A stretch of DNA of 60,464 nucleotides, taken from Spirogloea muscicola. Its lineage: Eukaryota; Streptophyta; Zygnematophyceae; Spirogloeales; Spirogloeaceae. The notes beneath the pieces were generated by a model. The model was not told the DNA's origin. It searched no databases and saw only the letters and a program-made list of their open reading frames with translations. Position numbers and translations under genes: made by a program. The stretch lies in contig WELB01000320.1 in NCBI GenBank assembly GCA_009602725.1, positions 9,617 through 70,080 on the forward strand. Direction: 5' to 3'. Of this stretch, positions 22,580 to 50,132 are shown piece after piece (position 1 is the first letter of the stretch; each line of letters opens with the position of its first letter).

Positions 22580-23355
22580 AGCAGGCTTAGCGCGGCATCG
22601 GCGGATTCTCTTGCTGCAGCCTCCGGCTTTCGTCAGGGGGATAGTTTTCCCGGCTACTTAGCAGGGGTTACTGAGTAATCCATAGCTGCTTTGTTTCTGT
22701 GTGCTTGATTTTCTTAGCGCTTCCCCTGGCCCCCTTCTCGTCCTTCGTTGAACTTTTTTGGGCTGGCTTTTCCAGCCCCTATTCTCAATGGGCGAGCACT
22801 TTCTTCTTTTTCCCGTCGCTTCTATGGGGAGCTAGTAGACTTTCCTGCAGCCGGGTCGCTGGCTCAAGTGTTCCGTATGCGCCTGGCCGTCTCGCTGCAG
22901 AGGTCTATGGCCCGCGCGCTGCACCATCGTGCCGGCAGAGCCCTCGCCACACCATCGCCCGTCGCTTCCATGGGGAGCCGGTAAACTTTCCTGCAGCCGG
23001 GTCGCTGTTGCAAGTGTATCGTATGTGCCTGGCCGTCTCGCTGCAGAGGTCTATGGCCCGGGCGCTGCACCTTCGTGCCGGCAGAGCCCTCGGTGCTGCC
23101 TCTGGCTCTGGCCAGGGGACCCACTTCCACGAGCCAAGCATCTCCGACCTGGGGCTGCTTAGCAGAGGTTACTGAGTGATTTGTAGCTGCTTTGTTTCTC
23201 TGTGTGCTTGTTTTTCCTAGCGCTTCCCCTGGCCCCCTTCTCCTACTCTGTTCATTCTTTTTTGGGCTGGCTTTTCCAGCCCCTATTCTCAATGGGCGAG
23301 CCCTTTCTTCCTCGCTGCTGCCTCTGGCTCTGGCCAGGGGACCCACTTCCAGGAG
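22580..23355 (+). mobile_element. Tandem array of truncated family C 3' ends
   Basis: At least three 5'-truncated copies lie head to tail, each starting where the previous 3' tail ends: one ending at about 22812 (tail CAATGGGCGAGCACTTTCTT), one of about 22813-23312 with an internal 150-bp repeat (22813-22949 and about 22965-23100), and a short piece from 23313. The coding remnants are FPAAGSLAQVFRMRLAVSL and SISDLGLLSRGY. Stem-loops of GGGCTGGCTTTTCCAGCCC sit at 22766 and 23262. New copies seem to have landed at or next to older 3' tails. Confidence 0.75.
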
Positions 23356-23922
23356 CCTGTTGAGCTTTGAGCTCTGCCATCTGTGCTGGTGTTCAAAGAC
23401 GAAGCGCACAGGGAATTGCTGCAAGCTGCAGCCGCCACTGTCACGCCTTGCGGGGATTTGCAGCAGCTTCCGTGTGAAGCTGCTGCCGCCGCCGCCGCTG
23501 TCGCTGCCGCTGCCGCTGCGGCTGCTGCTGGAAACCTCACTACGCGACCCCTGTACTGCCGCGCTTGCAGTGCGCTCTGCTGAGCCGGCGGGGATCGGTG
23601 GCGTACGCCCTAGTGAGTGCAAGGGAGCAAAGCCCTCCAGCCCCTCAAACCCTGAACCCGGCGGCACGCCCTAGCGCTGCCAGCCTGGATCTCACGGGTC
23701 GGCGCCAACCCCAACGGTGGAGATCCAATCGATCCACCAACCGCTGAGACCACCGGACTCCCTAGCTCAGGGATAAACCCTGAGCCCCTCAGTACCCCGC
23801 CAACACTTCACTGTGTGTGGGCCTTATAATGCACGCATGGAGGTGGTACCGCGCGGCTCCACACACAGTTCTAGAACCTAGATCATACGAGCTAGCAAGA
23901 GTTTCATAGATTTCTCACAACA
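23356..23922. other. No gene recognised; GCC/GCT triplet-rich stretch
   Basis: 23445-23530 is rich in GCTGCC repeats on one strand, so frames there give poly-Ala-like products without domains. A palindromic CTCAGGGATAAACCCTGAG lies at about 23766. Nothing here supports a gene. Confidence 0.4.
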
Positions 23923-24356
23923 TGCAGCCAGCCCTCCTTGGGCCCTCGGCGGGCTGACCCGCCGGGACCCACTGTGCCCATGTGATTTTGCGTTCTTTCT
24001 ATGTAGGCAAAAGGGGGTCGAGTGAGCTCAAGCTCTCTCTCTAACAGGAGCCACTGTCCTCCTTTTGCCCACCGCTCCTCCTTGCTTGCCAGCGCCCACG
24101 CCACCTGCCTTGAGCTTGCTGCCGGCGTGCTTCCTACCGGACCCTGCCGTCATCACCGCCATGGACAAGAAGGCTGTCTTTGCCGTGGGCAAGAAGGCGA
24201 GGAAGGAGCGCGGCGCTCCCTTCAAGAGCACCGCGTCCTCGTCGCCTGACCCTCAAGCTTCTTCGTTGCCTGAGCCTCAACCGAGTGTGGTGAGACTCTG
24301 GGTCCTGGGCATCCGGTTAGCCCGAATGTGGCACTAATCAACAGCCCAGCTTTACA
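23923..24356 (+). mobile_element. Copia LTR, 5'-truncated copy
   Basis: Matches the distal two thirds of the LTRs at 26069-26702 and 24866-25889, starting at GCAGCCAGCCCTCC and ending at the LTR terminus CCCAGCTTTACA (24356). It contains the same MDKKAVFAVGKKARKERGAP-coding stretch (24163 onward) found in every LTR copy, which therefore is not a separate host gene. Confidence 0.75.
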
Positions 24357-24450
24357 TTTGGCAGCAGAAGGTAGGCGTCGCAGGACGTTGAGGAGGATGC
24401 CGGAGGTTGAGAGCGTTCGGAGGGATTTGGGCAAGATCCATCTTCCTCAG
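24357..24450 (+). mobile_element. Tiny family A coding fragment
   Basis: EGRRRRTLRRMPEVE (about 24367-24412) matches family A residues between RT and the knuckle (RRRLRRLPEI). Adjacent sequence on either side is unrelated, so this is a scrap of an insertion next to an LTR. Confidence 0.45.
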
Positions 24451-24865
24451 CACACCAGAATTTACAACTTCGGGTCTCTAAGCACGCCCTTGTTACGCGA
24501 TATCCCGTCGGTGGCTCGTACCTGTAAATTGACAAGGATGGTGACGGGCTGCACGCGTGGACAGATAAGGGAACTCATACTTTGGTCTAGCGTTGAAGAA
24601 ACAGACACGTAGTAAGTCTTCCAAAGGGGGCAAGGTGTGAAAAGCCCGAAACAGTAGACAAGGTCCGAAAGGGCCAGAAATCAGAGAAAAGTCGTAAGCA
24701 CGGCACCTCCATCAAGGCACATGCCCTATCTGCCAGTGCCACAGATGGCATCGGTGCACAGAACCATCCTGCCGTCGCTCAGAAGAGAAGCCCACGAAGT
24801 AGCCGAAACGTCCAGAAGCCGGCTCCAAGGGGTGTGACCCACTTGACAAGTTGTCGTGAATCGGG

Positions 24866-25889
24866 TGTTAGAATATATGCATCAGCTCCTTCCATTTCGC
24901 CTTCATATTACTTGAGTGTCCCACTTATGGAAGCGCCTGTCGCTTCCAGAGGCGGCTTGCCCGGACCATTAGGGTGACACGTAGGCAGATCACACGTGTG
25001 AGATTGCGCCTCACGCCTGTGCCTCACACCGTGCCCGACTAGCTTAACGGACACCTCGGGCCGGCTCTGCAGCCGGGCCCCCCTGGGGCCCCGCTGCTGC
25101 CTCTGGCTCTGGCCAGGAGAAGAAAGTGCTCGCCCATTGAGAATAGGGGCTGGAACAACCAGCCCGAAAAAGAATGAACAGAGTACGAGAAGGGGGCCAG
25201 GGGAAGCGCTAAGTAACAGAAACAAAGCTGCTACGAGACACTCAGTAACCCCTGCTAAGCAGCCGCAGATCAGAGATGCTGCGCTCCTGGAAGTGGGTCC
25301 CCTGGCCAGAGCCAGAGGCAGCAGCGAGGGCCAGGGGACCCACTTCCAGGAGCCCAGCATCTCTGATCTGCGGCTGCTTAGCAGGGGTTACTGAGTGTCT
25401 CGTAGCAGCTTTGTTTCTGTTACTTAGCGCTTCCCCTGGCCCCCTTCTCGTACTCTGTTCATTCTTTTTCGGGCTGGTTGTTCCAGCCCCTATTCTCAAT
25501 GGGCGAGCACTTTCTGGGGCCCCCGGAGGGCGGACCCGCCGGGACCCACTGTGCTCCGTGATATTGTTTGTTTCTTTCAACCAATAAAGGGGGTGGGTCA
25601 GTGGGCATAAGCTCACACTGCCAACAGGCGCCACCGAGCTCCTTTCCCCCACTGCTGCTTGCTTGCCAGCGCCCACGCCACCTGCCTTCAGTCAGCTGCC
25701 GGCCTGCTTCCTGCCGGACCCTGCCGCCGTCACCACCGTGGGCAAGAAGGCGAGGAAGGAGCGCTACACTCCCTCCAAGAGCGCCGCTTCACTATCGCTC
25801 GAGCCCCAACTGAGTGATGACGGTAATGTTCCGTGTGATAGGCTTTCGGTTAGCCCCAAGTGGGTACTGACGAATGGCCCAGCTCAACA
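24866..25889 (+). mobile_element. Solo copia LTR interrupted by a palindromic insertion
   Basis: Begins TGTTAGAATAT and ends CAGCTCAACA, with flanks TCGGG (24861-24865) and TCGGT (25890-25894), an imperfect 5-bp target duplication. Without the 431-bp insertion the LTR would be about 593 bp, comparable with the 634-bp LTR at 26069-26702. No internal region follows, so it is a solo LTR left by recombination. Confidence 0.8.
25093..25513. mobile_element. Palindromic family C double 3'-end insertion
   Basis: A 28-nt family C scrap is followed by two oppositely oriented copies of the family C 3' terminus: arms of about 187 bp (25121-25307 and 25329-25515) around a 21-nt spacer, with only about one mismatch. 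The insertion is bounded by CTGGGGCCCC at 25083-25092 and 25514-25523. The uninterrupted LTR copies lack it. Both arms carry the coding end SISDLRLLSRGY, the stop, the 3' UTR and the hairpin. Confidence 0.85.
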
Positions 25890-26068
25890 TCGGTGTCATG
25901 CCCGAGGGCGTAGCGTCGTCGTAGCGTCGGCTAGCGGACGGTTGGGCGAAGCCGAGCAGGGCTAACCCTGGTCGGATATCTCAGGTAGAAAGGTGGTATA
26001 GGGAACCTCAGCGGGGGTAACCCGTGGGGTGCCTCGCTGGGTAGGGCGCAACCCGTATGGGCAGCCGG

Positions 26069-26702
26069 TGTAAAGCTGGGCTATCCGTTAGTGCCGTATT
26101 AGGGCTAACCGGATGCCCAGGACCCAGAGTCTGACCATCACTCGGTTGGGGCTCAGGCGGCGAAGAAGCTTGAGGCTCAGGCGATGAGGACGCGGTGCTC
26201 TTGATGGGAGCGCCGCGCTCCTTCCTCGCCTTCTTGCCCACGGCAAAGACAGCCTTCTTGCCCATGGCGGTGATGGCGGCAGGTGTCCGGCAGGAAGCAG
26301 GCCGGCAGCAACTCAAGGCAGGTGGCGAGGGTGCTGGCAAGCAAGGAGGAGCGGTGGGCAAAAGGAGGCCGGTGGCTCCTGTTAGAGTGAGAGAGCTTGA
26401 GCTCACTGGACTCCCTTTTGCCTACGTAGCAAAATCCCATGGGCACAGTGGGTCCTGGCGGGTCAGCCCGCCGGGGGCCCAAGGAGGGCTGGCTGCAGAG
26501 CCGGCCCGAGGTGTCCTTTAAGCTAGTCGGGCAGGGGCCTGCTGCAGAGTCGGCCCTAGGTGTCCGTTAAGCTAATGAGTCCACAGGTGTGAGGCACATA
26601 CTCACACGTCTGATCTGTCTACGTGTCACCCTGATGATCCAGGCAAGCCGCCCCTGGAAGCGACAGGTGCTTCCGAAAGGAGCTAATGCCTATATTCTAC
26701 CA
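26069..26702 (-). repeat. Copia 3' LTR (uninterrupted)
   Basis: 634 bp, from TGGTAGAATATAGGC to CCCAGCTTTACA. It provides the empty-site sequence for the two insertions in the 5' LTR and the one in the solo LTR. It contains an in-frame coding stretch (MGKKAVFAVGKKARKERGAP, 26276 downward) shared with the other LTRs. Confidence 0.85.
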
Positions 26703-26711
26703 CTCCCTCTC
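26703..26711 (-). promoter_or_regulatory. Polypurine tract of the copia element
   Basis: GAGAGGGAG on the minus strand lies directly before the TG of the 3' LTR, where plus-strand DNA synthesis starts in LTR elements. Confidence 0.7.
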
Positions 26712-26744
26712 ATGAGCTCCTCGATTACAGAAGCCCTATCTCCG

Positions 26745-29700
26745 TCCTGCATTTTATGAACTTCACAGTGGAGAGAGCTTTAGTAAAGATGTCATCAGTC
26801 ATATCTGATGTACTGACATACTCAAATGTGAATTCTCCACTCTCAACTTTTTCACGTGCTAAGTGTTGTTGAATTGCAATGTGTGTAGTTCGAGCATGAT
26901 GAACTGGGTTCTTTATTAATGCTAAGGACCCTTAATTATCGCTGAATGTCAGAGTAGGGTTAGAGATACTGAATCCGAAGTCGTGGTAGGAACGCCAAAG
27001 CCAAATAGCTTCCTTCATGGCTTGTGTCGCTGCCATATATTCTGCCTCGGTTGTGGAGAGCGCCACCGTTGCTTGTCTCTTGCTGCTCCAAGTGATGGCA
27101 CCTCCTCCAAGAAAAAATACATAGCCAGTTGTTGACTTCATCGTCTTCTTATCTCCATCCCAATCTGCGTCACAATAGCCAGTGAAAGTGAGCCCATGTT
27201 CATCTGCCTTGTACACGAGTTGCATAGATTTTGTTCCTTGCATATATCTTAGAACGCGCTTGACAGCTGTCCAGTGAGTCAGGCCAGGTTTATGCATGAA
27301 TTGGCTCACTGTTCCAACAGCTGCTGCAAGGTCTGGCCTAGTTCCAACCATTGCATACATCAAGGAGCCTACAGCCTGACAGTAGGGAAGGGAATGGAAA
27401 GAAAGGTTCTCTGTTTCGGTGTGTGGCTCCTCCTTGGAGAGTTTCATGTTGACATCTAGAGGAGTTGACGCACTGTTGCAGCCATCCATCTTGATTTTCT
27501 GCAATACATCAGACACAAATTCGCACTGGCTTAGTGAAATGCTTCTCTTGCTTCGATCTGTCTGGACTTGAATACCCAAACAATAGCTCAACTCTCCTAA
27601 GTCCTTCATATCAAATGCAGAAGAAAGTTGAGCTTTCAAGAGGGTCAAGTCATGGAGATGTTTGCTAACAATAATCAGATCATCGCCGTATAGTGCAGTT
27701 ACGATGAGAGTGTCTGCACGCCTAAGAATGTAGACACTGGAATCTGCAGAAGACCTCTTAAACCCTATCTCCTGCAGGAAAGTGTCAAATTTCTGATACC
27801 AAGCTCTAGGAGCTTGTTTCAGACCATACAAGGATTTCTGCAATTTGCATACAAGCTGGTCAGAATTCACTCCCTGATGGACATAGCCTTCAGGCTGGTC
27901 CATATATAGATTCCTTCATCAAGTTCGCCAGTGAGGAAGGCGGTTTTCACATCCATCTGATGAAGCTCAAAGTTCTCCGATGCTGCAATAGCCAGTAAAA
28001 CACGAAATGAAGTAAATCTCGCGACTTGAGCAAAGGTTTCAAAGAAGTCTACTCCCTCTATTTGCGAGTACCCTTTTGCTACCAAACAAGCCTTGAATCT
28101 ATCCACGCTACTGTCTGCATTTCTCTTAATACGTAACACCCACTTACAATCAATACTATTTCTACCAGGAGGAAGAGAAGTGAGCTGCCAGGTTTTATCT
28201 TTGATGAGAGATGCATATTCGGCATCAGCAGCTTCCTGCCACAAAAGAGCATCATCAGACGCAAGAGCTTGAGCAAGAGAGGAAGGGTCCCCCTGCAATG
28301 CCATGAAGGCATGTTCAGTTGCGAGCGAGACTGTTGAAGTTGTGGCAGTTGGAGGTGGCTCAGCATGTGCAGATACTTGTACTCCAACAGACTTCAGAGG
28401 TTGTTGGTTAGTGGGGTTAGTACCTACTCCCTCTAATTCAGAGAACAACACATCTCTTCTTACATCCTTTAACTGTAAGTCCCAAAGACGATATGCCTTC
28501 TGATGCAAGCTGTATCTGACAAACAAGCATTTGGACGACTTGGCATCCACCTTGTTACGTACAGGATTGTAAGCATTTGCTAAGCAGCCAAATACTCGGA
28601 GAAGAGATACATTGGGTTTGAGTCCAGTCCAAACCTCATAAGATATTTTCAGCTCAACAGCGACAGTAGGACTCCTATTTTTCAAGTACACTGCTGTAGA
28701 GACTGACACCGCCCATCGGATATGGGCAAGATCGTTATCATGTAGCATAGCTCTGGCAGACTCAAAGATGGTTCTGTTTGCTCTCTCAGCTACGCCGTTT
28801 TGCTGAGGTGTGTGAGGGGTACTAACGTGCTGAACAATTCCATGAGACTTGCAATAAATCTGGAATTCAGCTCCATGGTACTCACCTCCACAATCACTTC
28901 TTAGCACCTTGAGCTTCTTACCTGTCTGCCTTTCTGCCATGACATGGAACTCTTGAAATTTGGAGAAGACTTCATACTTGTGCTTCAGAAAATAAGCAAA
29001 CGTCATCCTAGGCTTATCATCGATGAGGGTAACAAAAAACCTTGCTACCCCCAGCAGAAGCATCGTCAATCGGTCCACACACATCACTGTGAACCAACTC
29101 AACAACTCTGCAGCTCTGGTTACATTTCCCTTGGGAAGGGTAACCTATGCTGCTTGCCGAGAGCACAACCTTCGCAAAATACTTCAGGCTAATGCTTGGG
29201 TAAAAGCATGCCTCTCACCATATCCCGTGAGAAGAGCTGTTCGAGGTTGTCGTGGCCATACCGGCGATGCCAAAGATCTCTGCCTGGCCTTGATATGGAC
29301 CCGGCAGCAAAAGCACGGACTAGTGGTTGCTGTGTAGTATGGTGCATTGCAAGTGATACATTTCACCTCGCGGAATGCCAGCAGCCACGATGTCCCCGGT
29401 GGCAACATTGGAAATTGCACACACATCTGCAGAGAATCTTACCTCCCTGCCAGGTATTGTTGCTTTGAAAACAGAGAAGAGATTGTGTTTCATGCATGGG
29501 ACATAAAGCACTTCCCGCAGAATGCATGGGATGATTCTGCTACCAACTTGACAGTGGATTTTGACAGTACCTTTACCAACAGCATAGCCAACAATTTCAT
29601 CTGCATATGTAATTGCAAGAGGCAAAGTACTGTGGTAGGTAACAAACCATGTCTTGTGGCAGCAAAGATGCTGAGAGGCCCCAGAGTCTATCCACCACAC

Positions 29701-29805
29701 TTCGCCTTCTCCACCATTAGTAGTATAAGTCTTAGGGACAGCCATAAAAGCTTCCTCTGGGGATACTGACTCTCTTGGAGTAGGTTTCAGGTGACGGGGT
29801 TTCAA
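26745..29805 (-). pseudogene. Copia pol: protease, integrase, reverse transcriptase, RNase H
   Basis: The aspartic protease motif WWIDSGAS lies near 29690. The integrase zinc domain is WHRRYGHDN...CEGCALGKQ near 29250-29130. Catalytic residues are HSDVCGP near 29085, RSDCGGEY near 28895 and GVAERAN near 28785. Reverse transcriptase shows VDFFETFAQVARFTS near 28020 and YGDDLI near 27685. RNase H shows GYCDADWDGD near 27165, STTEAEYMA near 27045 and a tail of NPVHHARTTHIAIQHH type near 26890. Breaks: a stop near 29180, one extra T in a T6 run near 29030, an extra TA near 27897, and a stop in the DNQ motif at 26932. All other landmarks are intact, so the element decayed recently or the sequence has errors. 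Confidence 0.85.
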
Positions 29806-30537
29806 GTTTGGATGTTTCTTCCAGCAAGTTGCTTCTGTGTGTCGAGGTTTTTACAAAAGGAGCAGATGGGAGACCCTTTCGAACCGGTAGAGCTGAGAAG
29901 TGCCAAAGCATCATGGGGACTACTGCTAGACGCCTTCTCCTTCCGCTTGGTCTCTTCCTACAGAAGCCTGGATATGACTTGAGACAGCGACGGAGCTGGT
30001 TCTCTCCCTTCAAGAGAGGTCACTACCAGCTCAAAGGATGCAGGCAAGCTAGACAAAAGATATGAGGCCATGTGCTTGTCTGGAACCGGAGCCCCTGTAA
30101 TTGCAAGCTGGTTCCCTAAGCCCTTCATAGCATCTACATGTGTTAGTAGAGACGCTCCCTCTGTCATACGGAGACCAAGTAATTTCCTGAACAAAAACAT
30201 CTCGTTGGCAGGCAATTTGGGCAGATAGAGCTCTACGAGCCTGTCCCAAACAGGCCTTTGCAGAGTTCAAGAGCTCAATGTAATGCAGCTGATTGTTCTC
30301 TAGATTTAGGACAATCACAGCCCTTGCCTGGTAGTCCATGCTACGCCAGAATGCAAAGTCTGACGAAGTATGATGAGGCTGGTCAAGACTCCCGTCAAAG
30401 AGACCCCACAATCCAATGGCTTGCAGAGCAGTGGTCACCTTCAGACTCCAGATAGACTCCCCGCCCAACCTCATACCGTCAGCTTGGACGGAGCTCAAAG
30501 GGTTACCTGAGAGTGCTGCGGTCCGTCGGCCCATAAC
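29806..30537 (-). pseudogene. Copia gag (UBN2-like) with CCHC knuckle
   Basis: Reads MGRRTAALSG...SIWSLKVTTALQAIGLWG, then LPANEMFLFRKLLGLRM, then a CSFC...RHTEATC knuckle near 29865, typical for copia nucleocapsid. The frame needs one T removed near 30243 and one A added in an A5 run near 29850. It is open upstream through the primer site into the 5' LTR, where MGKKAVF (30738) could be an alternative start. Confidence 0.75.
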
Positions 30538-30538
30538 C
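30528..30538 (-). promoter_or_regulatory. Half-tRNA type primer binding site of the copia element
   Basis: GGTTATGGGCC on the minus strand directly follows the LTR terminus TTTACA. It is complementary to an initiator-Met tRNA anticodon arm (GGCCCATAACC, CAT anticodon), the kind of site known from Drosophila copia, which is primed by a cleaved tRNA half. The ATG inside it is in frame with gag. Confidence 0.7.
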
Positions 30539-30976
30539 TGTAAAGCTGGGCTATTCGGTAGTGCCGTATTAGGGCTAACCGAATGCCCAGGACCCAGAGT
30601 CTGACCATCACTCGGTTGGGGCTCAGGCGGCGAAGAAGCTTGAGGCTCAGGCGATGAGGACGCGGTGCTCTTGATGGGAGCGCCGCGCTCCTTCCTCGCC
30701 TTCTTGCCCACGGCAAAGACAGCCTTCTTGCCCATGGCGGTGATGGCGGCAGGTGTCCGGCAGGAAGCAGGCCGGCAGCAACTCAAGGCAGGTGGCGAGG
30801 GTGCTGGCAAGCAAGGAGGAGCGGTGGGCAAAAGGAGGACGGTGGCTCCTGTTAGAGTGAGAGAGCTTGAGCTCACTCGACTCCCTTTTGCCTACGTAGA
30901 AAGAATGCAAAATCCCATGGGCACAGTGGGTCCCGGCGGGTCAGCCCGCCGGGGGCCCAAGGAGGGCTGGCTGCAG

Positions 30977-31469
30977 AAGAAAGGGCTCGCCCATTGAGGA
31001 TAGGGGCTGGACAAGCCAGCCCAAAAAAGAATGAACAAAGAACGAGAAGGGGGCCAGAGGAAGCCAGAGGAAGCGCTAAGAAACCAAAGCACACAAAGAA
31101 AGAAAGCAGCTACAAATTACTCAGTAACCCCTGCTAAGCAGCCGCAAATCAGAGAGGCTAGGGTCCTGGAAGTGGGTCCCCTACACAGAGCCAGAGGCAG
31201 CAGCGAGGGCTCTCCCGGCACGAAGGTGCAGCGCACGGGCCATGGACCTCTGCAGCGAGACGGCCAAGCGCATGCGATACACTTGCGCCAGCGACCCGGC
31301 TGCAGGAAAGTCTACCGGTTCACCATGGAAGCGATGGGCGATTGCGTGGCGGGCGAGCTGGTTAAGTAGCTCAAGCCACCGAGCGCCCAGTGCCCCATGG
31401 ATGTCAATTGCCAACGGGAAGAACTCGTCTTCCGGTGGATGGTCGGCGTACTTGATCTCTTTTGCCCGA
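30977..31469 (-). mobile_element. Family C non-LTR copy inserted in the copia 5' LTR
   Basis: 493 bp, 5'-truncated within KYADHP and 3'-complete with hairpin (about 31005) and tail GAAAGGGCTCGCCC. The duplicated target GCTGCAG flanks it (30970-30976 and 31470-31476). The 3' LTR shows the empty site at about 26485-26500. Coding remnant: FPLAIDIHGALGARWLELLNQ and FRMRL-type block, a premature stop near 31182, ending LLSRGY. Confidence 0.9.
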
Positions 31470-31710: not shown

Positions 31711-32024
31711 GAAGAAGAAGAAGCGCGGCCAGATTGACTGGTGGCTGGGAAAAGCCAGCCCAAAGGAATGGACAAGGTCTGAGGGAGCCTGAGTGCGAAC
31801 GACTAGGACTAAGACATCAGCCAGGGAGCGCTCAGTAAACTCTAGTCAGGAGATGCAAGTCCGAGTAGCTAGCTGGCGGAAAGCCGTCGCCCTGACGGAA
31901 GCCGAAGGCCGCCGCCAAAGCTTGGCCTGCGCGCAAGTGAATCGCGAAGGCAAGGGACCGCTGCATCGAGACGGCCAAACGCATACGGAAGACTTGAGCG
32001 AGGGACCCGGCGACGTTAAAGCTG
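31711..32024 (-). mobile_element. Family D non-LTR copy inserted near the start of the copia 5' LTR
   Basis: Coding remnant AGSLAQVFRMRLAVSMQRSLAFAIHLRAG ends in SYSDLHLLTRVY at about 31835. A 3' UTR then carries GACCTTGTCCATTCCTTTGG, a GGCTGGCTTTTCCCAGCC hairpin and the tail GGCCGCGCTTCTTCTTC at 31711. The LTR is split between GAATA and ATATAGG, giving a possible short ATA duplication. This 3' end is the source type of the 58-bp insertion at 48429. Confidence 0.75.
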
Positions 32025-32040
32025 TATTCTAACACCACAA

Positions 32041-32230: not shown

Positions 32231-32231
32231 C

Positions 32232-32335
32232 GCAGAAGAAAGTGCTCGCCCATTGAGAATAGGGGCTGGAACAACCAGCCCGAAAAAGAATGAACAGAGT
32301 ACGAGAAGGGGGCCAGGGGAAGCAGAGGCTGCTCT
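32232..32335 (-). mobile_element. Family C 3' tail copy
   Basis: Minus-oriented GAAGAAAGTGCTCGCCC and a GGGCTGGAACAACCAGCCC hairpin, then the UTR to about 32322. It equals the tail at 48580-48660. Coding sequence is absent. Confidence 0.75.
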
Positions 32336-32339
32336 TTGT

Positions 32340-32900
32340 GGTCCTTCTCCTCAAGGTCCTGAAAGTTCCCATATTGCGCGCTTTCGACTTGCGGCTGCTG
32401 ACTTAAGAGTACTATGTTTGTCCTATATGGTACTTGCACCTCTTGCTGGCGTCTTGGAGACTAGTATCCTGCTTTTTGCGCAATTCGGCCCTTTCAGACG
32501 TCAGCAAGTGGGCGCTCAATAACCTATGCACTCTGGTCAGCACATGCAAGTCAGAAGAATTGGAGAGTAGGAAAGCGCCGCCGTGATGAACCCGGGGGCA
32601 GCAGCCAAGGCGCGGCCTGCACGCAAGTGGACGGCAAAAGCTAAGGACCGCTGCAGGGAGAAGGCGTGCGGAGCGCATGAACTAAAGAAGAAGGGCTCGC
32701 CCATTGAGGATAGGGGCTGAGAAAGCCAGCCCAAAAAAGAATGTACAAAGTACGAGAAGGGGGCCAGAGAATAAAGGGAGGCCAATACAAGCCAATACAT
32801 TGTTAAGGAGATGGCAAGGCGCATCCTGTACACTTGAGCAAGCGACCCGACTGTCTTGGAGACTACTATCCTGCTTTTGGCGCCATCCGGCCATTTCAGA
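32340..32900 (-). mobile_element. Fragments of family C/D 3' ends
   Basis: Contains a minus-strand coding scrap ending in SNSSDLHVLTRV at about 32525-32570, preceded by RSLAFAVHLRAGRALAA (about 32600-32650). A tail unit with GGGGCTGAGAAAGCCAGCCC lies at about 32714-32735, and another scrap TVGSLAQVYRMRLAI at about 32815-32860. At least two insertions are juxtaposed. Confidence 0.6.
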
Positions 32901-33640
32901 CCTTGTAACATTCCTCTGGGCTGACTCTCACAGCCATTGCCGTAAATTGGAAGAGCTAATTCTTCTTCTTCTTCAGACCTTGTCCACGCCTTTGGGCTGG
33001 CCTCTCACTGCCATTGCTGTGATTTGGAAGAGCTTATTCCTTGCCTATCTGTCTCAGCCCTTTTTGGCCCCTTCGGACCTTGTCATTCACGTCGGGCTGG
33101 CTTTTCACATTGTAACCTTTAGTAACCTTCTCACAGCCCTCGCCCTCTTTGGTCCTCTTGGCCACTCAGGCCCTCCATCACTTATTAGACACTCCATTTT
33201 GCTTTGGAAGAGCTCACCTCTTATTGTGCGTCCATTTGCAGAAGCACTAGCTCACAGGATTCACGGAGAAAACTTACAATAATTTGCGCCCTTCGGCCAT
33301 CCCAGCCCTTGTTCAGTCCTTCTGGGCCTCACTCAGTGGGTACTGAGCTTCCCTCTGCGCCGTCTCTTGTCTAGCTGTGTCTGTCCGTTCATTTTGGGCT
33401 GGCCTTCTTTCTCCATGGGCGAGCCTCTTCTTTTGGGCCGGCCACTCAGCCCTCACAGCCCTCAGAGCTTCTTCTTGGGCTGGGCCAGTCAACATCAAGA
33501 AAGAACAGTTCTTCCAAGTTGTCAGGAGTGGCTGTGAGAGACCAGCCCAAAGGAATGGACAAGGTCTCGAACATCGCCCTTCACTGAACAAGGTATTGTT
33601 TTGTTACTTCTGTCGGGCTGGCCTTTCACATTGATAGGCT
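32900..33640 (+). repeat. Array of plus-oriented retroelement 3' UTR units
   Basis: Successive units share CAGACCTTGTC, then a GGGCTGGC...CACAGCCATTGCC stem-loop, then a TTGGAAGAGCT end: about 32905-32957, 32970-33035, 33045-33215, 33300-33440 and 33590-33625, in various truncations. GGCGAGCCTCTTCTT at about 33418 is a tail end. A minus-oriented unit (about 33520-33560) interrupts. No gene. Confidence 0.7.
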
Positions 33641-33649
33641 TTTGTGTAT

Positions 33650-34744: not shown

Positions 34745-35215
34745 TTTCATTCACTCACAGCAAAAGGAAGTACTCACTCGTAGAGGATAGGGGCTGGGAA
34801 AAGCCAGCCCAAAAAGAAATAACCAAGTTCAAAGGGGCCAGGGGAAGCGCTAAAGCTAGCACAAAGGGAATCAAGCAGCTATTAACCACTCTAAACCCTA
34901 AACCCCTGCTAAGCAGCCGCAGGTCAGAGAAACTGGGCTCCTGGTAGCGGGTCCTCTGGCTAGGGCCGGAAGGCAGCAGCGAGGGCACGACCGGCACGCA
35001 GATGCAGCGCGCGAGCCATGGACCTCTGCAGCGAGACGGACAAACGCATGCGGTACACCTGCGCGAGCGAGCCTGCTGCATGGAAATCTCACCAGCTCCC
35101 TATGGTATCGGCGGGAGATGGCGTGAGAGCCGGTTGAGCAGCTCGAGCCACCGAGCGCTCAATGCCCCGTGGGTGTTGATGGCGAGCGGGAAGAACTCGT
35201 CTTCCGTCGCCCCCT
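34745..35215 (-). mobile_element. Non-LTR family C, 3' fragment
   Basis: A remnant of FFPLAINTHGALSARWLELLNR at about 35140-35205, then shifted frames to FSDLRLLSRG at about 34925. The 3' UTR has a GGGGCTGGGAAAAGCCAGCCC-like hairpin at about 34790 and tail sequence near 34760. Several indels are present. Confidence 0.7.
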
Positions 35216-38700: not shown

Positions 38701-41700
38701 GCAAGCGCTGTGCCTGTAAGCGAGTTGCTGTGCCATTTCAATGACGATGTGATAGTGATGGATTCTGTATGTTTCCAGCCTGACAGGCACTGTACCTGCT
38801 GAACTGGGAAGGACCTCCCTGACCCTTTTGAGCCTCTACAGTAATTCGTATGTTTCTGATAGACCTCTGTAGATGCATTTATGCTGATTGAGGATGTCGT
38901 CAGCTGAAGTTCCCTGTAGTAAACTTAGCACACGGTGAAAGTATGCATCATGCAGCCTCGATCAAAGCAGCTGGATCCAACCTTCGGTTGCAAATGCTAT
39001 CTGCTCATGACATGATCTTACCAGGTTGGAAGGCATGATTCCTCCTGAACTGTGTGGCCCGGGTAACAGATTGACTCATCTGTTACTCGTGGACAATGGG
39101 TGAGGTCATATGGGCTGGCCGTCAATGTTTCCACCCTTCTCATGCTGCTACTGGCTGTTGATTTAACAGTCGAATTGCTCTATTGTGTATCTCCAAGGCA
39201 ATGTGTTGTGTGAATCCGTCAATGTGACTCCTTTTTGATTTTCGGGCCCACTTCCAGCAACAATAGGGGACTGCACATCTCTCACCTCGTTATTCTTGAG
39301 TGACAACAGGTGAGGCCACGTGCTCTTCTTTCCTTTTATCCTCCACTTAATACCCTCTCACTTCACTACATTCAAAGACTCGTCTGAATGGATGTGATGC
39401 AAGGCTTCAATGAGAACCGAATGGATTGTTGCAGCTTTTCTGGTGGACTCCAAGCTTAAGTAGTTGTCTTGCATCCAGATTGACGGGAGTCATACCTTCA
39501 AGCATTGGCAATCTTCGGATGTTGACTTTCTTAGATTTGGGGAGCAATAAGTAGGTATGAGCAAGACATTCCTAGCAGACTTGTGCCGTGCATAGCAATT
39601 TGAAGCATCATTGCAAGGAGTGTCCTTGAGCCACGGTGTGCTTGACAACATCAGCTTATTGCGAGTGTGTCGGATTTAAAGAAGTAGTCATCGGTCACGA
39701 AGCTATGAGAAGGTGGACAGTATTGAAAGCTCTTCGCTGTGATGCAGCCTTACTGGTCCCATACCATCAGAATTGGGAAACTGCAAAAGTCTCAGATACC
39801 TCTATGTCAATGACAACCAGTAAGCTCCAATATGCATTTTGCCCAAGTTTCAGCATGTAGGCCTGCTCTGTTGTCCCTACGTGGAGGTCATTTTGTGCAA
39901 TAAGCTCCCAGTTCATGAGGGAGTTAACTGCTACCTACTACCATTGCAGTGTGTTGTCGTCAGCAATAAAGTGAAGGCATGCAGGGGTTAGCACATGCAA
40001 CTTGCATCTTACTGTCAGCTGTAACACCACTTGCAAATATTGGTGACAATCCTTCCTGTCCAGGCTATCAGGAAGCTTACCATCTGCGCTCGGAAACTGC
40101 TTGCAGCTCCTTGGTCTCAACATCTCCTTAAACAGGTGCACTGTAGAGCATGAAAGAGTTATGGTCACTTTGGATACACTGCAAGGTTATGGTGGCTTGC
40201 ATATTTTGGTGAATGTCCTACTTGTCCAGGCTGTCAGGAAGCATACCATCTGCGCTCGGAAATTGCTCGCAGCTCCTTGATCTCGACATCTCCTTCAACA
40301 GGTGTGCTGCAGTGCATGGAAGACTATTGGTCACTCTGCGTTCTCTGCATGGTCCGGTGGCTTCGCAGCATCCATCTTGGTAGAGGAGGATGACAAGCGT
40401 TGTAGCTACACCTTGTTTTCTGTGTCCTCTCCTTGGCATTCTTCAGTACGGTTGCTCTTTGACATTGCTTGACGCTGGTCTAGGTTGGTTGGGGCCATGC
40501 CTGTGGAGCTTGCGATGAGTCAGATCGAGTCTCTCAATTTCGAGAACAACAGGTTCATACTTGCAAAATGTTTGCCACTCTACAATCAAGATGCCAGTCC
40601 CGTTGCCAGCTTGCTGCACACTTCGCTTCCTGAGGCTGCATCTGTGACGTGTTTGCTTGTGTGGCACTGCGGATTCCCAGCCTGATAGGACCTATTCCGA
40701 AGGAGTTTGGTCAGCTAGTCAATCTCACAGTCCTCTCTGCATACAATAACAAGTATGCAACCTTTCTTGCAGAACATGCTGAGTCTCGATTGCACCGTCT
40801 GATCTAGCACAGGCAAATCACGCTATAATTGGCATTGCCAAGACCCTGAAGCCCCTGATGGTGCAGATGACACAAGCGCTGTGCCTGTAAGAGCGTTGCT
40901 GTGCCATTCCAATGATGATGTGATAGTGATGTCCTCTGTGTGTTTCCAGCCTGACAGTCACTATACCTGCTGAACTGGGAAGGACCTCCCTGACCCGTTT
41001 GAGCCTCCACAATAACTCGTGTGTTTCTGATAGACCTCTGTAGATGCAATTATACTGATTGAGGATGTCGTCAGCTGAAGTTCCCTGTAATAAGCACACG
41101 GTGAAAGTATGCATCATGCAGCCTCGATCAAAGCAGCTGGATCCAACCTTTGGTTGCAAATGCCATCTGCTCATGACATGATCTTACCAGGTTGGAAGGC
41201 ATGATTCCTCCTGAACTGTGTGGCCCGGGTAACAGATTGACTCGTCTGTTACTCGCGGACAATGGGTGAGGTCATATGGGCTGGCCGTCAATGTTTTCAC
41301 CCTTCTCATGCTGCTACTGGCTGTTAATTTAGAAAGTTGAATTGCTCTATTGTGTATCTCCAAGGCAATGTGTTGTGTGAATCCGTCAATGTGACTCCTT
41401 TTTGGCCAAGGTTTTCGGGCCCACTTCCAGCAATAATGGGGGACTGCACATCTCTCACCTCGTTATTCTTGCGTGACAACAGGTGAGGCACGTGCTCTTC
41501 TTTCTCTTCCAGTCAATACCCTCTTAATTTATTAGATTCAAAGACTCAGGAATCTGAATGGATATTGTGCAAGGCTTCAATGAGAACCGGATGAATTGTT
41601 GCAGCTTTTCTGGTTGAAGTCCAAGCTCAAGTAGTTGTCTTGCATCCAGATTGACGGGAGTCATACCTTCAAGCATTGGCAATCTTCGGATGTTGGATTA

Positions 41701-44700
41701 CTTAGATTTGGGGAGCAACAAGTAAGTATGAGCAAGACTTTCCTAGCAGACTTGTGCCGTGCATAGTGAATTGAGGCATCATTGCAAGGAGTGTCCTTGA
41801 GACACGGTGAGCTTGACAACATCAACTCATTGCGAGTGTGTCTGATTTGATGAAGTAGTCATCGGTTGCGAAGCTATAGAGAAGGTGAACAGTTGCTGAA
41901 GCTCCTCGTTGTGATGCAGCCTTACTGGTCCCGTACCATTGGAGATAGGAAACTGCAAAAGTCTCAGATACCTCTATGTCAATGACAACCAGTAAGCTCC
42001 AATATGCATTTTGCCCAAGTTTCAGGCATGAGGGCCTGCTCTGCTGTCCCCACGTGCAGGTCATCTCGTGCAACAAGCTCCCAGTTCATGAGGGAGTTGA
42101 CTGCTATTTGTGCACATAAGAGCCAGAGTGCTGGCGACATTGAATTTGCTGCTCTCAGAGAGTTGCATTGCATTGTTGCATCGAAGCTGATGCAAATCTG
42201 CTGTGCATCTCAGTGGCAAGCCTCACAACATGTTGCAGGTTAAGCGGGGATTTCCCCGCTTCACTAGCAAACCTGTCCCTTTTACAGGTCCTTTTCATTT
42301 CGAATAACGGGTAAGTGACCACATACAAGCGTGGCAAGTATCTTCCTGATGGTCGTCTGCAACAACACAGAGAAGTCAAACTCTAAGCCAACCAATCATG
42401 ACAACTCCTGATGTTATCTCTCCTTGCTGCCACCATGCAGTATATCTGGAAGCCTGCCCGCCGAGCTTGGACTAAGTGGAACTCTCACTGAGCTTCTCCT
42501 CTACAACAATAAGTACTCTCAATACTGCACTTCTCCTCAAAGTAGTGTGATGGTGTGGTTGGCACACAGCAGTATGCCTAACTTTTCTATGAAGTCTGCT
42601 CCCGTGCATATTGAGGTCTGCTTGATGCACGTTGTCTGGGAAAATTTTGATCCGACACATACCTGCACAGGCTGACAGGCTCCCTGCCACCAGCAATTGG
42701 CAATTGTCAGAATCTGACAAACCTTGAGCTTAATTATAACAGGTGCGCAGTCCTGCACCTTTTCTCTTCAACTTTATGTCATATATGCTGCACATCAAGC
42801 ACAGCCCTAAAATATCATGCAGCTTGTGCCATCTCGAGAAGCTGATGTCATGTGACTGGGCTTGATCAACAGCATTACTGGTACATTTCCGCCTGGATAT
42901 GGCAATCTTACCAGCATGTACGCCTTCTTGGCACAAGGTAACAGGTATGACTAGCTCTGCTGATTGACAGAATACAAGAAGTATGCAATCAAGACCTTGC
43001 AATCTATGACTTGGATGTAACACTAGCTTGTGGACCCGAAGCAATTTACCAAGGAGGCACAGGACCGCCAAGCAGATGTTTCAAGCGGCCATGCGTTTCC
43101 ATGATCTCTTCCGCAGCTTAAGTGGTAGCCTCCCACCAGAGCTCAGTTACTGCAAGTCACTTGGCCAGCTCGACCTTCAGAGAAACAGGTAGCCACAGAA
43201 ACTGCTCCTGCAGAGGTCTTCCCTTCTATCATCTCACGACCAGCTGTCAGTGTCCAACTTATCTGGCATGTAACTATCCCTCTTGTGTGCAATGTGTATT
43301 GAGTGAATATTTCACTGTCTATGCCTGCAGTCTTGGAAGTGTGTCAGAAACAGTGGGGCTCTGCTGCAGTGTTGTATTGATACCCCGTGTGTTCACTCTT
43401 TTGACTAAGAAAACCATGAGACAAACATGTTGCACTTCTCCTACTGATTCTGCAAATATAGAATTATGTCACAAATAGTGGGGCTTTGCAGAAGTGAAAT
43501 ACTGTATATCACATTCTTCGCGCTTGTGGACCTATTAACATGCTGCTCACAGTCTCTCCAACCTTTTCCACAGACTCAGCGGGCCCATCCCTCCATCATA
43601 TGGCAACTTGGCTAATTTGAACAGCCTCTTCTTGTATTCCAACAAGTGGGTATCACTCCTTTGTTGTCGACTGGTTGTTTAGAATTGAAGAAGCTTGGAC
43701 CTGACACTTTCCATTCTACCTTCCATTAGATCAGGATTACGAATCATCATAGTCAGAAGCCACGGCATGGTTTTACAGAGCCCTTCCTCCTGTACCAATT
43801 CCAGATTATCGGGCCACATACCAAAGCAGCTAAGCAAGTGCAAAAAGCTCCGGCACCTGAGCCTGAGCGACAACTTGTAAGGGGTTCCTTGCCGCCCGTG
43901 TCAACTGCTTGGTTGACTTGCAAGAAGCCAGTTTCTCACGTCAAGGCATGTTTATGTGGCTCCAAATCCCACTCTCGGTGTAGCCTTCCGAGATCTCAAT
44001 CGTCCACAGTTTGTTCAACACCAACCCTAATGAGGTGGCAGTCTGCATATCAAACATGGCAGGCTTGTTGGAGGGGTACCGAAAGATTTTGGGGAGCTGC
44101 CTAATCTCCTCGACTTCCAGGCAAGCAACAACAGGTGATAGAAGCAAAAACAGACTTCGGCAGCGTATCACAGCAAGTGACTGTGCATATTTATGATCGC
44201 TTATGATTTCATCACGCCTGCAGTGAAAGGCCAACTAGATATGTGCTATTTCAGGCTGTGCTATGTATTAGGTTGACTTTGCAGGTGTCAGATCACCCAT
44301 CATCAATTGCTCGTTTGGTGTCAGCTTGGAGGGTGGAGTGCCACCAGAGCTTGCAAATTGCAGGGAAATGGTCAACCTGGACCTGAGCTACAACAGGTGC
44401 TGAGCTAGGACTGCGTCTCCATTGGAGCCAATGCTTGCCTTCACCATGTCAGCAGATACATAAACTGCAGAAGAGTCACAGCTGGCATTGTCACTTAGCG
44501 GCTCGCTCGCCCTTACTGGCAGATTAAGTGGCTTTGTGCCGCCTCGATTGGGGACACTTCTGCTGCTCAACGGGCTCTACCTTACTGGCAACAGCCTCTC
44601 AGGACCGATTCCGACAACCTTTCTCCAACCTGGAGAACTTGCAAGAGCTGGTAGTGGAAATGAATAATTTCTCTGGCCCATTCCCACAGTGGCTTGGCAA

Positions 44701-47235: not shown

Positions 47236-48566
47236 AGTGCGCGAGCACGGAAAGATTGACAAGGTCCAAAGGGGCTGATAATATGCTGAAGCACATAACC
47301 AAGTCAGCATGTGAAAAGCCAGCCCGAAACTAACTGACGTCACCCCAAGGGGCTGACAAGTGTTGAAATACATAAATAAGCACGTGCCATGCAGGGTAAT
47401 CGCTTACTACATTCCTCCTCAGTAGCCGCAAGTCAGAAAAATAGCCCCCAGAAAGCGGTCCCTTGATGTGAGTGAGAGGCTACAGCTAGAGCACGGCCAG
47501 CACGTAGGTGCGAGGCGTGAGCTGTAGTGACCCGACCCCTCTACACAGGCAAATGGGCGGTCTAGTCCTGATTGGGTTCGGACGTAGGGATCAAGAAGCA
47601 AACCCTTACACCGTGAAGCTCATGAGTATCGCCAAGCGGAAGTCTTGCCCTGTGACGCTGCCGTCAGGCGGCCTCTCCACTTCCCAGGCAACAGCCCGCA
47701 GCTAGCCCACCAAGGGCCGGTGTCGTGCTACATCCCGTCGACGGCCTATTTGTGCTGTCTGACTAGGACAATTGACCTGGCTTGACACATGGCTTCCTTG
47801 GCTGGGTCATACACTTTTGTGTGCTAAGGATGGAGGACCACTATTCTCTCAATGCTTCCTAGGCTGGGTCATACACTTTTGGGTGGGATACAAGCTGAGG
47901 ATGGAGGACCACTTCTCTCCTCTTTCACTCTCTCCCTTCCTCTTTCTCCCGGCGACCGCTCATCAAATGCGAACGACAACAATGACCGCTCATCAAATGC
48001 GGACCACACCAACAACGGAGCGATGACAAGGGCCAAAGAAGAAAGCGCGGCCAGATTGACTGGTGGCTGGGAAATTCCAGCCCAAAGAAATGGACAAGGT
48101 CTGAACGAGCCGGGGTGCGACGCGGTGGCTGGGCGATGGTGGAACGAACGGCCGAAGATGACCATTGTATGATCAAGTCGGCCACTGAGACGGGTGACGA
48201 CGGTCCACGACAGCCGGCCATCCAGCTTAGCCAACCACCGCAGCCAACGGCCGAACCTGACCTATCAGACAGCGCTGGAATCTTCGCCGCGCCAGGCCCA
48301 AGTCGGGGCGAGCGGCCTCTGCGACGAGTCCGCTTCGCAAGGTTTACCCTCCTGCCACGAGCCACGCCTGCGCCAACGCCGCGCCATAGAAGCGTAGAGC
48401 CTAGGGCAGGAGCCGCAGCAGCTAGAAAGAAGAAGCGCGGCCAGATTGACTGGTGGCTGGGAAAGGCCAGCTCAAAGGAATGGACAAGCTAGAAAACCTT
48501 CGCACGGACCCGCTGCGCGACTTCGAGAAGTCGTGGTGATTCTGCGGTGAGCAGCTTTGAAATTAG
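47236..48566 (+). repeat. Composite dispersed repeat, copy 2 (pair of 5008-6272)
   Basis: Same order and orientation as 5008-6272. The minus-strand coding scrap with CGYF-like end at about 47430, the GGATGGAGGACCACT pairs and the CGCGGCCAGATTGACTGGT tail (about 48046) all recur. It differs by small indels and by a 58-bp insertion at 48429-48486. The two copies bracket the region holding both LRR loci and most of the retroelements. Confidence 0.8.
48429..48486 (-). mobile_element. 58-bp hairpin-tail retroposon with 9-bp target duplication
   Basis: The insertion is flanked by AGCTAGAAA at 48420-48428 and 48487-48495. The paralogous site at about 6192-6205 is empty. The inserted sequence is the family D-type 3' terminus (on the minus strand CATTCCTTTGAGCTGGCC..., ending CGCGCTTCTTC). 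It has essentially only the stem-loop and tail. Confidence 0.85.
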
Positions 48567-48574
48567 AAGAAGAA

Positions 48575-50132
48575 AGAAAGTGCTCGCCCATTGAGAATAG
48601 GGGCTGGAACAACCAGCCCGAAAAAGAATGAACAGAGTACGAGAAGGGGGCCAGGGGAAGCGCTAAGTAACAGAAACAAAGCTGCTACGAGACACTCAGT
48701 AACCCCTGCTAAGCTGCCGCAGATCAGAGATGCTGGGCTCCTGGAAGTGGGTCCCCTGGCCAGAGCCAGAGGCAGCAGCGAGGGCTCTGCCGGCACGAAG
48801 GTGCAGCGCCCGGGCCATGGACCTCTGCAGCGAGACGGCCAGGCGCATTCGATACACTTGCGCCAGCGACCCGGCTGCAGGGAAGTCAACCGGCTCCCCA
48901 TGGAAGCGCCGGGCGATGGTGTGGCGGGCGAGCTGGGTGAGCAGCTCGAGCCACCGAGCGCCCAGCGCCCCATGTGTGTCGATGGCCAACGGGAAGAACT
49001 CGTCTTCCCGCGGATGATCCGCGTACTTCAGCTCTTTGGCCCGAGCAGCGCAGGCGACCGCATACCCAGCCGTGGTGGCACATTTGGCTGGGTGTGAGCG
49101 GTCATAGGCATCAGTAGTCACCACGTCCAGGAGAAGACGTGGCCCGCCGGCCTGTCGGGTGGCCACCAGGTCTACACGCCTGGCATGGAGACCGTCGGCC
49201 CTGTGCTGGATTGGCATGATTCCGGAGTGCTCTGCTGCCACGGAGAAACCAGCCTCCAACAGGATGCCATGCATTACGTCGCGGAGGCGGTCGTGGGCCG
49301 CTGTCCGCTCTCCGCCGTGGGAACAGCGCAGAACATGAGCAGCCAGCTCTCCAGGCTCGGTCCCGCGCTCGCCACACTCACATTGACGCACACCCTGGAG
49401 ACATGGCGGCAGTAGGCCCAGGAGCCGGTGGACGGCACTTCGGAATACCTCGTCCGGGAGGGTGAGGGCGTCGTAGAGGGGGAGGGCCTGGAGCCACGCC
49501 GCAGCCCCCGGGGAAGAGGCCGAGTGGAGTCTCGCGCGCCCGCGCAAGTCGGCCTCGGGGAGCTGGAGCACGGCGGTGGTGTAGGCGGCCTTGTCGACCA
49601 CTGCCGCGATGCGCGCTTGGACGCGCAAGTCGGCGGTGTGCGCGAGGTGCGCAAAGGATACCGCCTGGCCGGCCAGGTCCGGGTGCGCCGCGAGCAGCTC
49701 CTGGTGGGCGGAGCGAAGCGACACCTGGAACGGCAGCGGGCCCATGTCGACCTCCGCCACCGCCTGCTCCAGTGCCCGCCGGCCGTGGACCAAGAAGCGC
49801 TGGGCCACGGAGGCGGCAGTCTGCGCCCAGCTGCCGAGGTATGCCGCCCGGCAAGAACGAGCGAGCGGGCGCAGGCCGAGACCACCGTGGCTGAGGGGTA
49901 GCGCCGCCTGGTGGATAGCTGCTGGCGACTGGAGGAAGCCCTGGTGGCGGACCAGGGCCGCCAAGCTCGCCACCATGCTTGCATCGAAATCTGCATACGC
50001 TGCCAACGCCCCAGGGGACGGCGGAGTGGCCCGCGTCAGGTACTGGGGCCGCTGCCCAATGGCCCTGGTCAACATGGCCAGCGATAGTTGCATGTCGTCC
50101 AGCTCGGGAAGCCGGGCCGCAGGATAGCACAT
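48575..50132 (-). mobile_element. Non-LTR family C, best-preserved 5'-truncated copy
   Basis: From the 3' tail (GAAAGTGCTCGCCC at about 48577) and hairpin (about 48600-48618), through the 3' UTR and an open frame, to an abrupt 5' end near 50132. No clear flanking duplication. It inserted right at the end of the composite repeat. Confidence 0.85.
48696..50132 (-). CDS. Truncated non-LTR polyprotein, endonuclease half (family C)
   Basis: 478 codons, open. Begins after the reverse transcriptase (LPELDDMQLSLAMLTRAIGQ aligns with families A and B). It carries QCECG...HVLRC near 49390-49320, the endonuclease-like RRVDLVA and LLLDVVTTDAY near 49170-49110, KELKYADHP near 49030, then LAVSLQRSMARALHLRAG, and ends QLSRGY. 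There is no RT domain, so it could not move alone, but its 3' end is the reference for the many family C fragments. Confidence 0.8.
   Translation of the reverse strand: MCYPAARLPELDDMQLSLAMLTRAIGQRPQYLTRATPPSPGALAAYADFDASMVASLAALVRHQGFLQSPAAIHQAALPLSHGGLGLRPLARSCRAAYLGSWAQTAASVAQRFLVHGRRALEQAVAEVDMGPLPFQVSLRSAHQELLAAHPDLAGQAVSFAHLAHTADLRVQARIAAVVDKAAYTTAVLQLPEADLRGRARLHSASSPGAAAWLQALPLYDALTLPDEVFRSAVHRLLGLLPPCLQGVRQCECGERGTEPGELAAHVLRCSHGGERTAAHDRLRDVMHGILLEAGFSVAAEHSGIMPIQHRADGLHARRVDLVATRQAGGPRLLLDVVTTDAYDRSHPAKCATTAGYAVACAARAKELKYADHPREDEFFPLAIDTHGALGARWLELLTQLARHTIARRFHGEPVDFPAAGSLAQVYRMRLAVSLQRSMARALHLRAGRALAAASGSGQGTHFQEPSISDLRQLSRGY

Follow-up and report, generated by a model that had tools for sequence, protein, structure and literature searches.

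How the proteins of long interspersed nuclear elements (LINEs) choose their own RNA is a long-standing question, and it is raised by a 60,464-nt stretch of the Spirogloea muscicola genome (assembly GCA_009602725.1, contig WELB01000320.1, positions 9,617 to 70,080 of the forward strand), called the window below. The window is dense with R2-like non-long-terminal-repeat (non-LTR) retrotransposons. The original prediction, made from the letters of the window, held that families with different open reading frames (ORFs) share a 3' stem-loop and a TTTCTTC tail, and that the reverse transcriptase (RT) recognizes this module. Is the shared 3' end a recognition site, and does it pass between families? 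We examined it in the window and in the genome (153.1 Mb in 471 contigs); coordinates without a locus name refer to the window, and L-numbers denote loci elsewhere in the genome. A kinase encoded in the window was 91% identical, over 79% of the query, to the EukProt protein SM000002S05509, and the best match to the D element outside this genome carries a number of the same type, as used for S. muscicola. With reasonable confidence, we propose that the module is the 3' end used for template recognition and priming in a clade of R2-like LINEs, which encode an RT and a restriction-like endonuclease (RLE).

A scan of the window and the fetched loci for a terminus resembling S-D-L-x-L-L-T/S-R-G-Y-stop gave 49 distinct ORF ends, among which seven ORF families were recognized (A, B, C, D, E, F, and H). 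When the genome was searched with the C-termini of these families, 89 places were found for A, 87 for B, and at least 150 for each of F, H, E, and C; genome copy counts are minimum values, since scoring was limited to the best candidates. The 3' ends were selected by protein match, the hairpin not being used as a criterion, and were taken from 40 of the A places, 20 of the B places, 11 F, 9 H, 10 E, and 10 C places, together with the D loci. Every one of the seven families ended in a module of about 60 nt, consisting of a GGCY..RGCC hairpin, a spacer of about 20 nt, and a pyrimidine tail. In an alignment of 42 ends chosen by hand to represent the range of variants (30 from A, C, D, E, and F, 7 from B, and 5 from H), the stem was followed by a spacer carrying a block similar to T-C-A-A-T, then by a GC-rich stretch and the tail. 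A covariance model was trained on the 30 ends of A, C, D, E, and F and left out B and H, since MAFFT misplaces their 3' arms. In the window, this model gave 33 matches at E<=1 and 27 at E<=0.01, in agreement with the roughly 20 or more copies first estimated; two of the training ends are window copies of family C (31715 and 48037) and match by construction. Seventeen of the 27 modules lie within 22580-48660. Applied to 203.5 kb of loci that had been selected for their tails or for D copies, the model found 120 modules. As to the claim that many copies have no coding sequence, at least 8 of the 27 window modules stand behind a recognizable ORF C-terminus, and the search for ORF ends found none for the other 19. 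The quoted hairpin strings were found on the plus strand (GGGCTGGCTTTTCCAGCCC at 22760 and 23264) and on the minus strand (GCCGCGCTTCTTC at 31729 and 48441). Two others, GGCTGGCATTTCACAGCC at 7059 (minus strand) and TTGGCCTTTTGGCC at 18762 (plus strand), are also present but lie outside 22580-48660, where they had been placed.

The module is conserved, as had been proposed, across families with differing ORFs, whose C-termini are 37 to 72% identical in amino acid sequence. The identities were 64 to 65% between A and C, 64% between A and F, 70% between C and F, and 67 to 72% between E and A, C, or F (full-length references, 108 amino acids only). D and H were 55% identical to each other and 47 to 49% to A, C, and F, and B was 39 to 42% identical to A, C, D, F, and H and 37% to E. 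A maximum-likelihood ORF tree, in which E and references of the named RLE clades R4, NeSL/Utopia, HERO, and CRE were left out, supported D with H (97/96) and A with C and F (98/99) and set B apart. The full-length D element (7013..11142, minus strand) is flanked by a 9-bp target-site duplication (TSD), CCAGTCCTC, at 11143-11151 and 7004-7012. Its stop-to-stop frame of 1,348 amino acids (7113-11159, minus strand) contains an RVT_1 domain (63 bits) and an RLE-like domain, and the RT is of the LINE type, related to R2 and LINE-1 RTs by sequence and by fold. In the C-terminal part, 11 relatives shared invariant C, C, H, and C positions, then D, then K, which we take to be a CCHC knuckle and a PD-(D/E)xK-like endonuclease; this predicted domain is the one expected of RLE-encoding non-LTR elements. 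For the predicted structure of the last 795 residues (predicted local distance difference test, 83; predicted TM-score, 0.80), the seven top-ranked Foldseek matches were all R2 structures (query TM-score [TMq], 0.49-0.60), with alignments extending over 839-870 columns, and the predicted RT and RLE fold is closest to that of R2. 5' truncation and TSDs are also present. The elements are thus RLE-encoding non-LTR retrotransposons of the R2 group in a broad sense; the D copies listed have differing flanks and do not occupy the single 28S rDNA site of R2 proper. Further D copies with open frames and 99 to 100% amino acid identity occur in the genome, and A and B likewise have near-identical open-frame copies; the families were therefore active recently.

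Two amplified hybrid lineages support the exchange of modules between families that had been proposed. In the first, a C-family ORF end and about 33 nt of C untranslated region (UTR) are followed by an F-type UTR and module. At least 40 scored places span at least 169 of the 180 nt of this C/F hybrid at 93 to 100% identity; 10 of them are in one tandem array and at least 30 are dispersed on 26 contigs. In one C/F hybrid, the readable 116 amino acids, which end an 818-amino-acid open frame, were 90% identical to C and 76% to F. In the second lineage, an A-family ORF end is followed by GTGATTC and then by an F-type UTR (the 81% subfamily) and module, and at least 40 scored places match over 126 or more of its 141 nt, with 94 to 100% identity; the ORF of one such A/F hybrid (L078) was 93% identical to A. 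The junction, save for a few substitutions, was shared by 12 of 12 C/F and 12 of 12 A/F loci read, 10 loci of each set having been fetched specifically for this reading, and the flanks of the hybrid loci differed where read. Among eight hybrid modules compared by global identity, seven were nearest F (L134 was not parsed); the module of L136 tied F and A, one A reference being itself a hybrid. Because the hybrids stand at many dispersed places, the sequences indicate that 3' ends are exchanged between families and that the composites still move. Ten head-to-tail 882-bp units with the C/F hybrid 3' end were also seen at G000:C353:50004-58120.

One of the 12 C/F loci, L148, shows a layout that a 5'-truncated F-type copy inserted into a C element by target-primed reverse transcription would leave. 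In this locus, C UTR sequence starts again downstream of the F-type module and continues as far as a C module (94.6% identity over 56 nt); the F-type copy of about 115 nt is flanked by a 12-bp direct repeat, TTAGTCCTAGTC, at 64-75 and 192-203. The other 11 C/F loci share this left junction but stop at the F-type tail. L148 could be the founder itself, or it could be a later copy for which the C end was used. Pieces of another family were found within 185 nt of the stop in 32 of 120 3' UTRs, and these were mostly nested or neighboring copies. Among the nested copies standing upstream of the host module, one F UTR contained a 57-nt piece of C, another F UTR contained a 128-nt piece of E with only 18 nt of F matched behind it, and a C UTR contained a 70-nt piece of H. 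It is probable that the amplified composites were copied, starting at the new tail, by a protein whose usual module is that of another family. On this reading, the module is likely to suffice for recognition in A, C, and F alike.

By analogy with R2 and from the hybrids, we infer that the RT recognizes the module, and the following steps would account for the copies. The element protein would bind the hairpin and conserved spacer and nick the target DNA, and reverse transcription, primed by the nicked strand, would begin on the U/C-rich tail (UUUCUUC and variants). When it terminated early, tiny 5'-truncated copies would result, some of module length. A tiny copy landing in the 3' UTR of another family would produce a composite transcript with a second usable 3' end, and reverse transcription from that end would yield a hybrid that joins one family's ORF to the other family's module and could then spread; nesting would also be the route to the A/F lineage. 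A broader proposal is that the module of about 60 nt is a portable retrotransposition tag, mobilizing itself and being adopted as a 3' end, with a pool of tags circulating among RT lineages and each RT copying the tags of other families. We see about equal grounds for accepting and for doubting this proposal.

R2 is the closest known system by predicted fold (R2Bm and R2Tg). In the accessible part of PMC10499050, a 43-nt 3' RNA core of R2Bm suffices for target-primed reverse transcription; it is similar in size to the module, so a tag of module size is plausible. This R2 core has two stems, whereas one short hairpin was seen here, and 3'-end swaps among families of one genome, found here, are not mentioned in that part of the source. 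R2 is also site specific in 28S rDNA, whereas the elements here are dispersed. Among LINEs of the stringent type, UnaL2 and plant L1 carry an apurinic/apyrimidinic endonuclease. Stringent LINE/SINE (short interspersed nuclear element) pairs, such as UnaL2 and the maize and sorghum L1/SINE pairs, have a 3' stem-loop with conserved flanks common to autonomous and nonautonomous copies (PMC3747384, as far as its available text goes). The same arrangement was found here, with the stem-loop common to autonomous and short copies. In those pairs the tail is common to a LINE and a SINE, whereas here RLE-type autonomous families share and exchange it. The partially available report of LINE-1 chimeric insertions (PMC13174262) likewise joins LINE RNA to other RNAs; those are L1 insertions with other RNAs, whereas here hybrid lineages with a new 3' end reached tens of copies. 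NeSL/Utopia and HERO-type elements encode an RLE, as here, and some of them target microsatellites (PMC4640811, in the part accessible); no strict target was seen for the elements here. In the literature searched, which covered few subscription journals, neither RLE LINEs nor 3'-end hybrids were found described from Zygnematophyceae. The natural hybrids are ready-made swap experiments that suggest which 60 nt or so suffice and that specificity is common to several families. They also make a route of LINE 3'-end replacement visible, with a founder-type copy still in the genome, and describe an R2-like system outside animals with tags about as short as the engineered R2 tag.

We examined the pairing of the hairpin, which is well supported as a conserved sequence and modestly supported by covariation in the aligned ends. 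With the arms of the 42 ends anchored by hand, stem pairs p1 and p2 were G-C in 42 of 42, p3 was paired in 41 of 42, and p5 in 33 of 38. The p4 position was paired in all 42, as U-A in 30, C-G in 8 (all seven B and one H), and U.G in 4 (three H and one D). When the stem partners were slid by 1 to 4 positions, at most 119 of 206 were paired, compared with 200 of 206 in the true register. In 2,000 shuffles of the 3' letters, the p4 value was never reached and the p5 value was reached 21 times, although relatedness of the copies inflates these tests. Within A, C, D, E, and F only, the stem was nearly invariant (92.4% of cells paired versus at most 62.9% when slid). Compensatory changes in plant L1 stems are described in the available part of PMC3747384. 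One H copy, L117, carries GGCTTG..CAAGCC, and other H copies have a weaker GGCT..GGCC stem; this is possibly a restored stem. A candidate second spacer hairpin (CTC..GAG in A) was rejected, as GCGCGC variants break it.

Several observations weigh against reading the module as an RNA structure exchanged between families. The compensatory change is modest, being confined to two stem pairs. The double changes anticipated by the original prediction appear only with B and H included, and MAFFT leaves the 3' arms of these two families unaligned; within A, C, D, E, and F, the sole both-sided change is the outer G-C to U-G. The p4 signal depends on a few family-level changes, the p3 shuffle is uninformative (the observed value was reached in 2,000 of 2,000 trials), and the outer p0 and inner p6 pairs were formed in only 24 of 42 and 20 of 30 ends. 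H is sister to D by ORF, yet its hairpin resembles that of B, a discordance that we do not advance as evidence of exchange. In pairwise comparisons, the C-E module was no more alike than the coding end (68 versus 69%), pairs with D were about equal (module, 64 to 69%; coding, 64 to 68%), and pairs with B were at or under the coding value, some being poorly aligned. The parent UTR resumed in none of the 12 A/F loci read; therefore, recombination or template switching is a possible origin of the A/F lineage. Finally, another module abutted the 3' end in 19 of 95 copies and was found at 60 nt further out in 13 of 94 (P = 0.33), compared with 108 of 4,000 random window places. In the flank, a module occurred within 60 nt for 30 of 95 copies and between 60 and 120 nt for 27 of 94 (random window 60-mers, 141 of 2,000). 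These tests used the 95 of 126 copies whose end was located by a regular expression; 15 of the 31 dropped were D copies with a context that the expression did not match. Site-specific self-targeting of modules was rejected, since the rate beside the 3' end is no higher than further out, and only clustering is claimed.

The tail could belong wholly or partly to the target DNA (TTC-like sites), leaving the element with the hairpin and spacer only. Consistent with this, D tails after CCGC vary (TT, TTTCT, TTTCTTC, or TTTCTTCTTCT), and two D ends (L015 and L024) have no pyrimidine tail. Several strings common to both flanks are pyrimidine rich, including TTCCGGGT, CTTTTCTCC, and the CCAGTCCTC mentioned above, which suggests a preference for pyrimidine-run targets, although 4 of the 21 D loci searched for TSDs had no shared flank string of at least 5 and many strings were short. 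However, in most copies read, which occupy unrelated sites, the spacer is followed by a pyrimidine tail, and we give a target origin small but real credence. It had been proposed that tails found equally often away from element ends would speak against the module. A GC-rich stem of at least 5 bp was found 8 to 35 nt upstream of 48 of the 128 TTCTTC-type strings in the window, compared with 14 of 142 in reversed sequences and 585 of 4,000 random positions (overlapping strings counted singly). As 80 of the 128 had no such stem, bare TTCTTC is not specific, unlike the longer GGGCGAGC tail. The string GGGCGAGCACTTTCTTC occurred 6 times in the window and 2,468 times in the genome, and the reversed pattern did not occur.

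Alternatively, the hairpin could serve formation or stability of the transcript 3' end rather than RT recognition. The near-fixed distance from stem to tail, 20 to 23 nt in the window copies of A, C, and D, is what a processing signal would have. Nevertheless, conservation continues through the spacer and tail, and a copy consisting of the module alone was inserted with a TSD. This 59-nt family C copy (48429..48487, minus strand) is flanked by an 8-bp TSD, TTTCTAGC, at 48488-48495 and 48421-48428, and a homologous repeat without the insert (6191-6209, minus strand) represents the empty site. The 43-nt R2 core demonstrated for priming (PMC10499050, accessible part) also counts against a processing role, which we consider unlikely.

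The short copies raise the further question of whether they are true SINEs with their own promoter and a borrowed LINE tail. Short copies are many: 76 of 164 3'-anchored copies in the window and loci were 100 nt or shorter. The lengths are underestimates for copies that have a diverged upstream UTR or reach the end of a locus, and the 164 include 42 D copies, which were chosen for their ORF. Their lengths form a continuum, however, and no tRNA and no Rfam family at gathering scores was found in the window, where promoter boxes as such were not scanned. The SINE reading, which is very unlikely, was therefore dropped, and the short copies look like 5'-truncated insertions. The predicted tiny nonautonomous copies hold insofar as the smallest copies equal the module, but they are better seen as part of a 5'-truncated continuum than as a separate family.

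Among A, C, E, and F, the module was more alike than the last 300 coding nt in five of six pairs: A-F (80 versus 64%), A-C (71 versus 66%), A-E (74 versus 68%), C-F (75 versus 72%), and E-F (74 versus 67%). Comparison of the UTR from stop to module was inconsistent (A-F, 71% versus 45 ± 12% when shuffled; A-E, 32% versus 53 ± 14%). Pure vertical descent, in which the module is an old conserved 3' end that was never exchanged and its likeness mirrors ORF descent, agrees with A, C, E, and F being closest by ORF and most similar in module, but it is the least tenable explanation, being contradicted, unless the hybrids are assembly artifacts, by copies with A and C ORFs that carry their own or F-type modules with sharp shared junctions at many loci.

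The end of family B differs from its first description. The C-terminal part of the B ORF in the window (500 amino acids; 17205..18707, plus strand) is followed by B's own hairpin and tail (18762..18806, plus strand), with GGCC-TTTT-GGCC at 18762-18775 and ACACGGAATGTCTTC at 18792-18806. The quoted B hairpin is indeed B's own and is homologous to the other hairpins in a looser alignment. The GGGCGAGCAC or GGGCGAGCACTTTCTTC tail attributed to B is not; the segment at 18807..18828 (plus strand), TCTATGGGCGAGCACTTTCTTC, is a remnant of an A/F module beside which B ends. Other B copies end in forms such as CACGATCTCTTTCC or CACGCATTTTC. Of 19 readable B copies elsewhere, only 2 had GGGCGAGC in the 130 nt after the stop, and each time it was a piece matching an A or F end that adjoins the B end. 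On these alignments, B is inserted into an older A/F end, the source of its apparent GGGCGAGCAC tail. A fragment with an integrase core and zinc-binding domain (16523-17065) lies directly upstream of this B copy.

The window modules listed below belong mostly to family A. On the plus strand, A modules lie at 22748..22805 (70.8 bits), at 23252..23309 (79.4 bits) behind an ORF end (23175), and at 25459..25515 (67.6 bits) behind an ORF end (25394) with the tail cut at TTTCT. On the minus strand, they lie at 11198..11255 (71.1 bits; a copy of about 76 to 80 nt), 25120..25177 (71.1 bits), 30977..31034 (74.7 bits; behind an ORF end at 31121), 32236..32293 (71.1 bits; a copy of only about 88 to 90 nt), 32687..32744 (66.5 bits; no ORF end recognized upstream), 34764..34822 (60.6 bits; diverged), and 48574..48631 (71.1 bits), the last belonging to an A copy whose C-terminal ORF part of 478 amino acids occupies 48696..50132 (minus strand). 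Family C modules were found on the minus strand at 5816..5874 (46.5 bits) and at the two training ends, 31715..31773 (55.9 bits; behind an ORF end at 31832) and 48037..48095 (49.6 bits). The D module (7013..7072, minus strand; 56.9 bits) consists of the hairpin GGCTGGCATTTCACAGCC (7042-7059), the spacer, and a TTTCTT tail. An F ORF C-terminus (172-amino-acid open frame; 21773..22291, plus strand) is followed by an F module (22376..22433, plus strand; 55.6 bits). Weak E-type modules lie at 32906-32964 and 32982-33041 (plus strand; 21.7 and 21.3 bits) and at 33500..33560 (minus strand; 20.9 bits).

End-to-end module pairs in opposite orientation were seen at 25118-25515 and in L047, L060, and L122, and apparently arose from opposite insertions into the same or neighboring modules. 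An LTR-like piece (25503-25890) abuts the A copy at 25459-25515. In addition, a Copia-type LTR element (26069-30977) with RVT_2, rve, and gag domains has a right end that abuts the tail of an A copy, and its repeats of about 430 bp (26069-26499 and 30539-30977) are 96.8% identical. A tandem duplication of about 2.2 kb (37724-42106; copies at 37724-39933 and 39892-42106) is 92.9% identical and contains internal 166-bp repeats.

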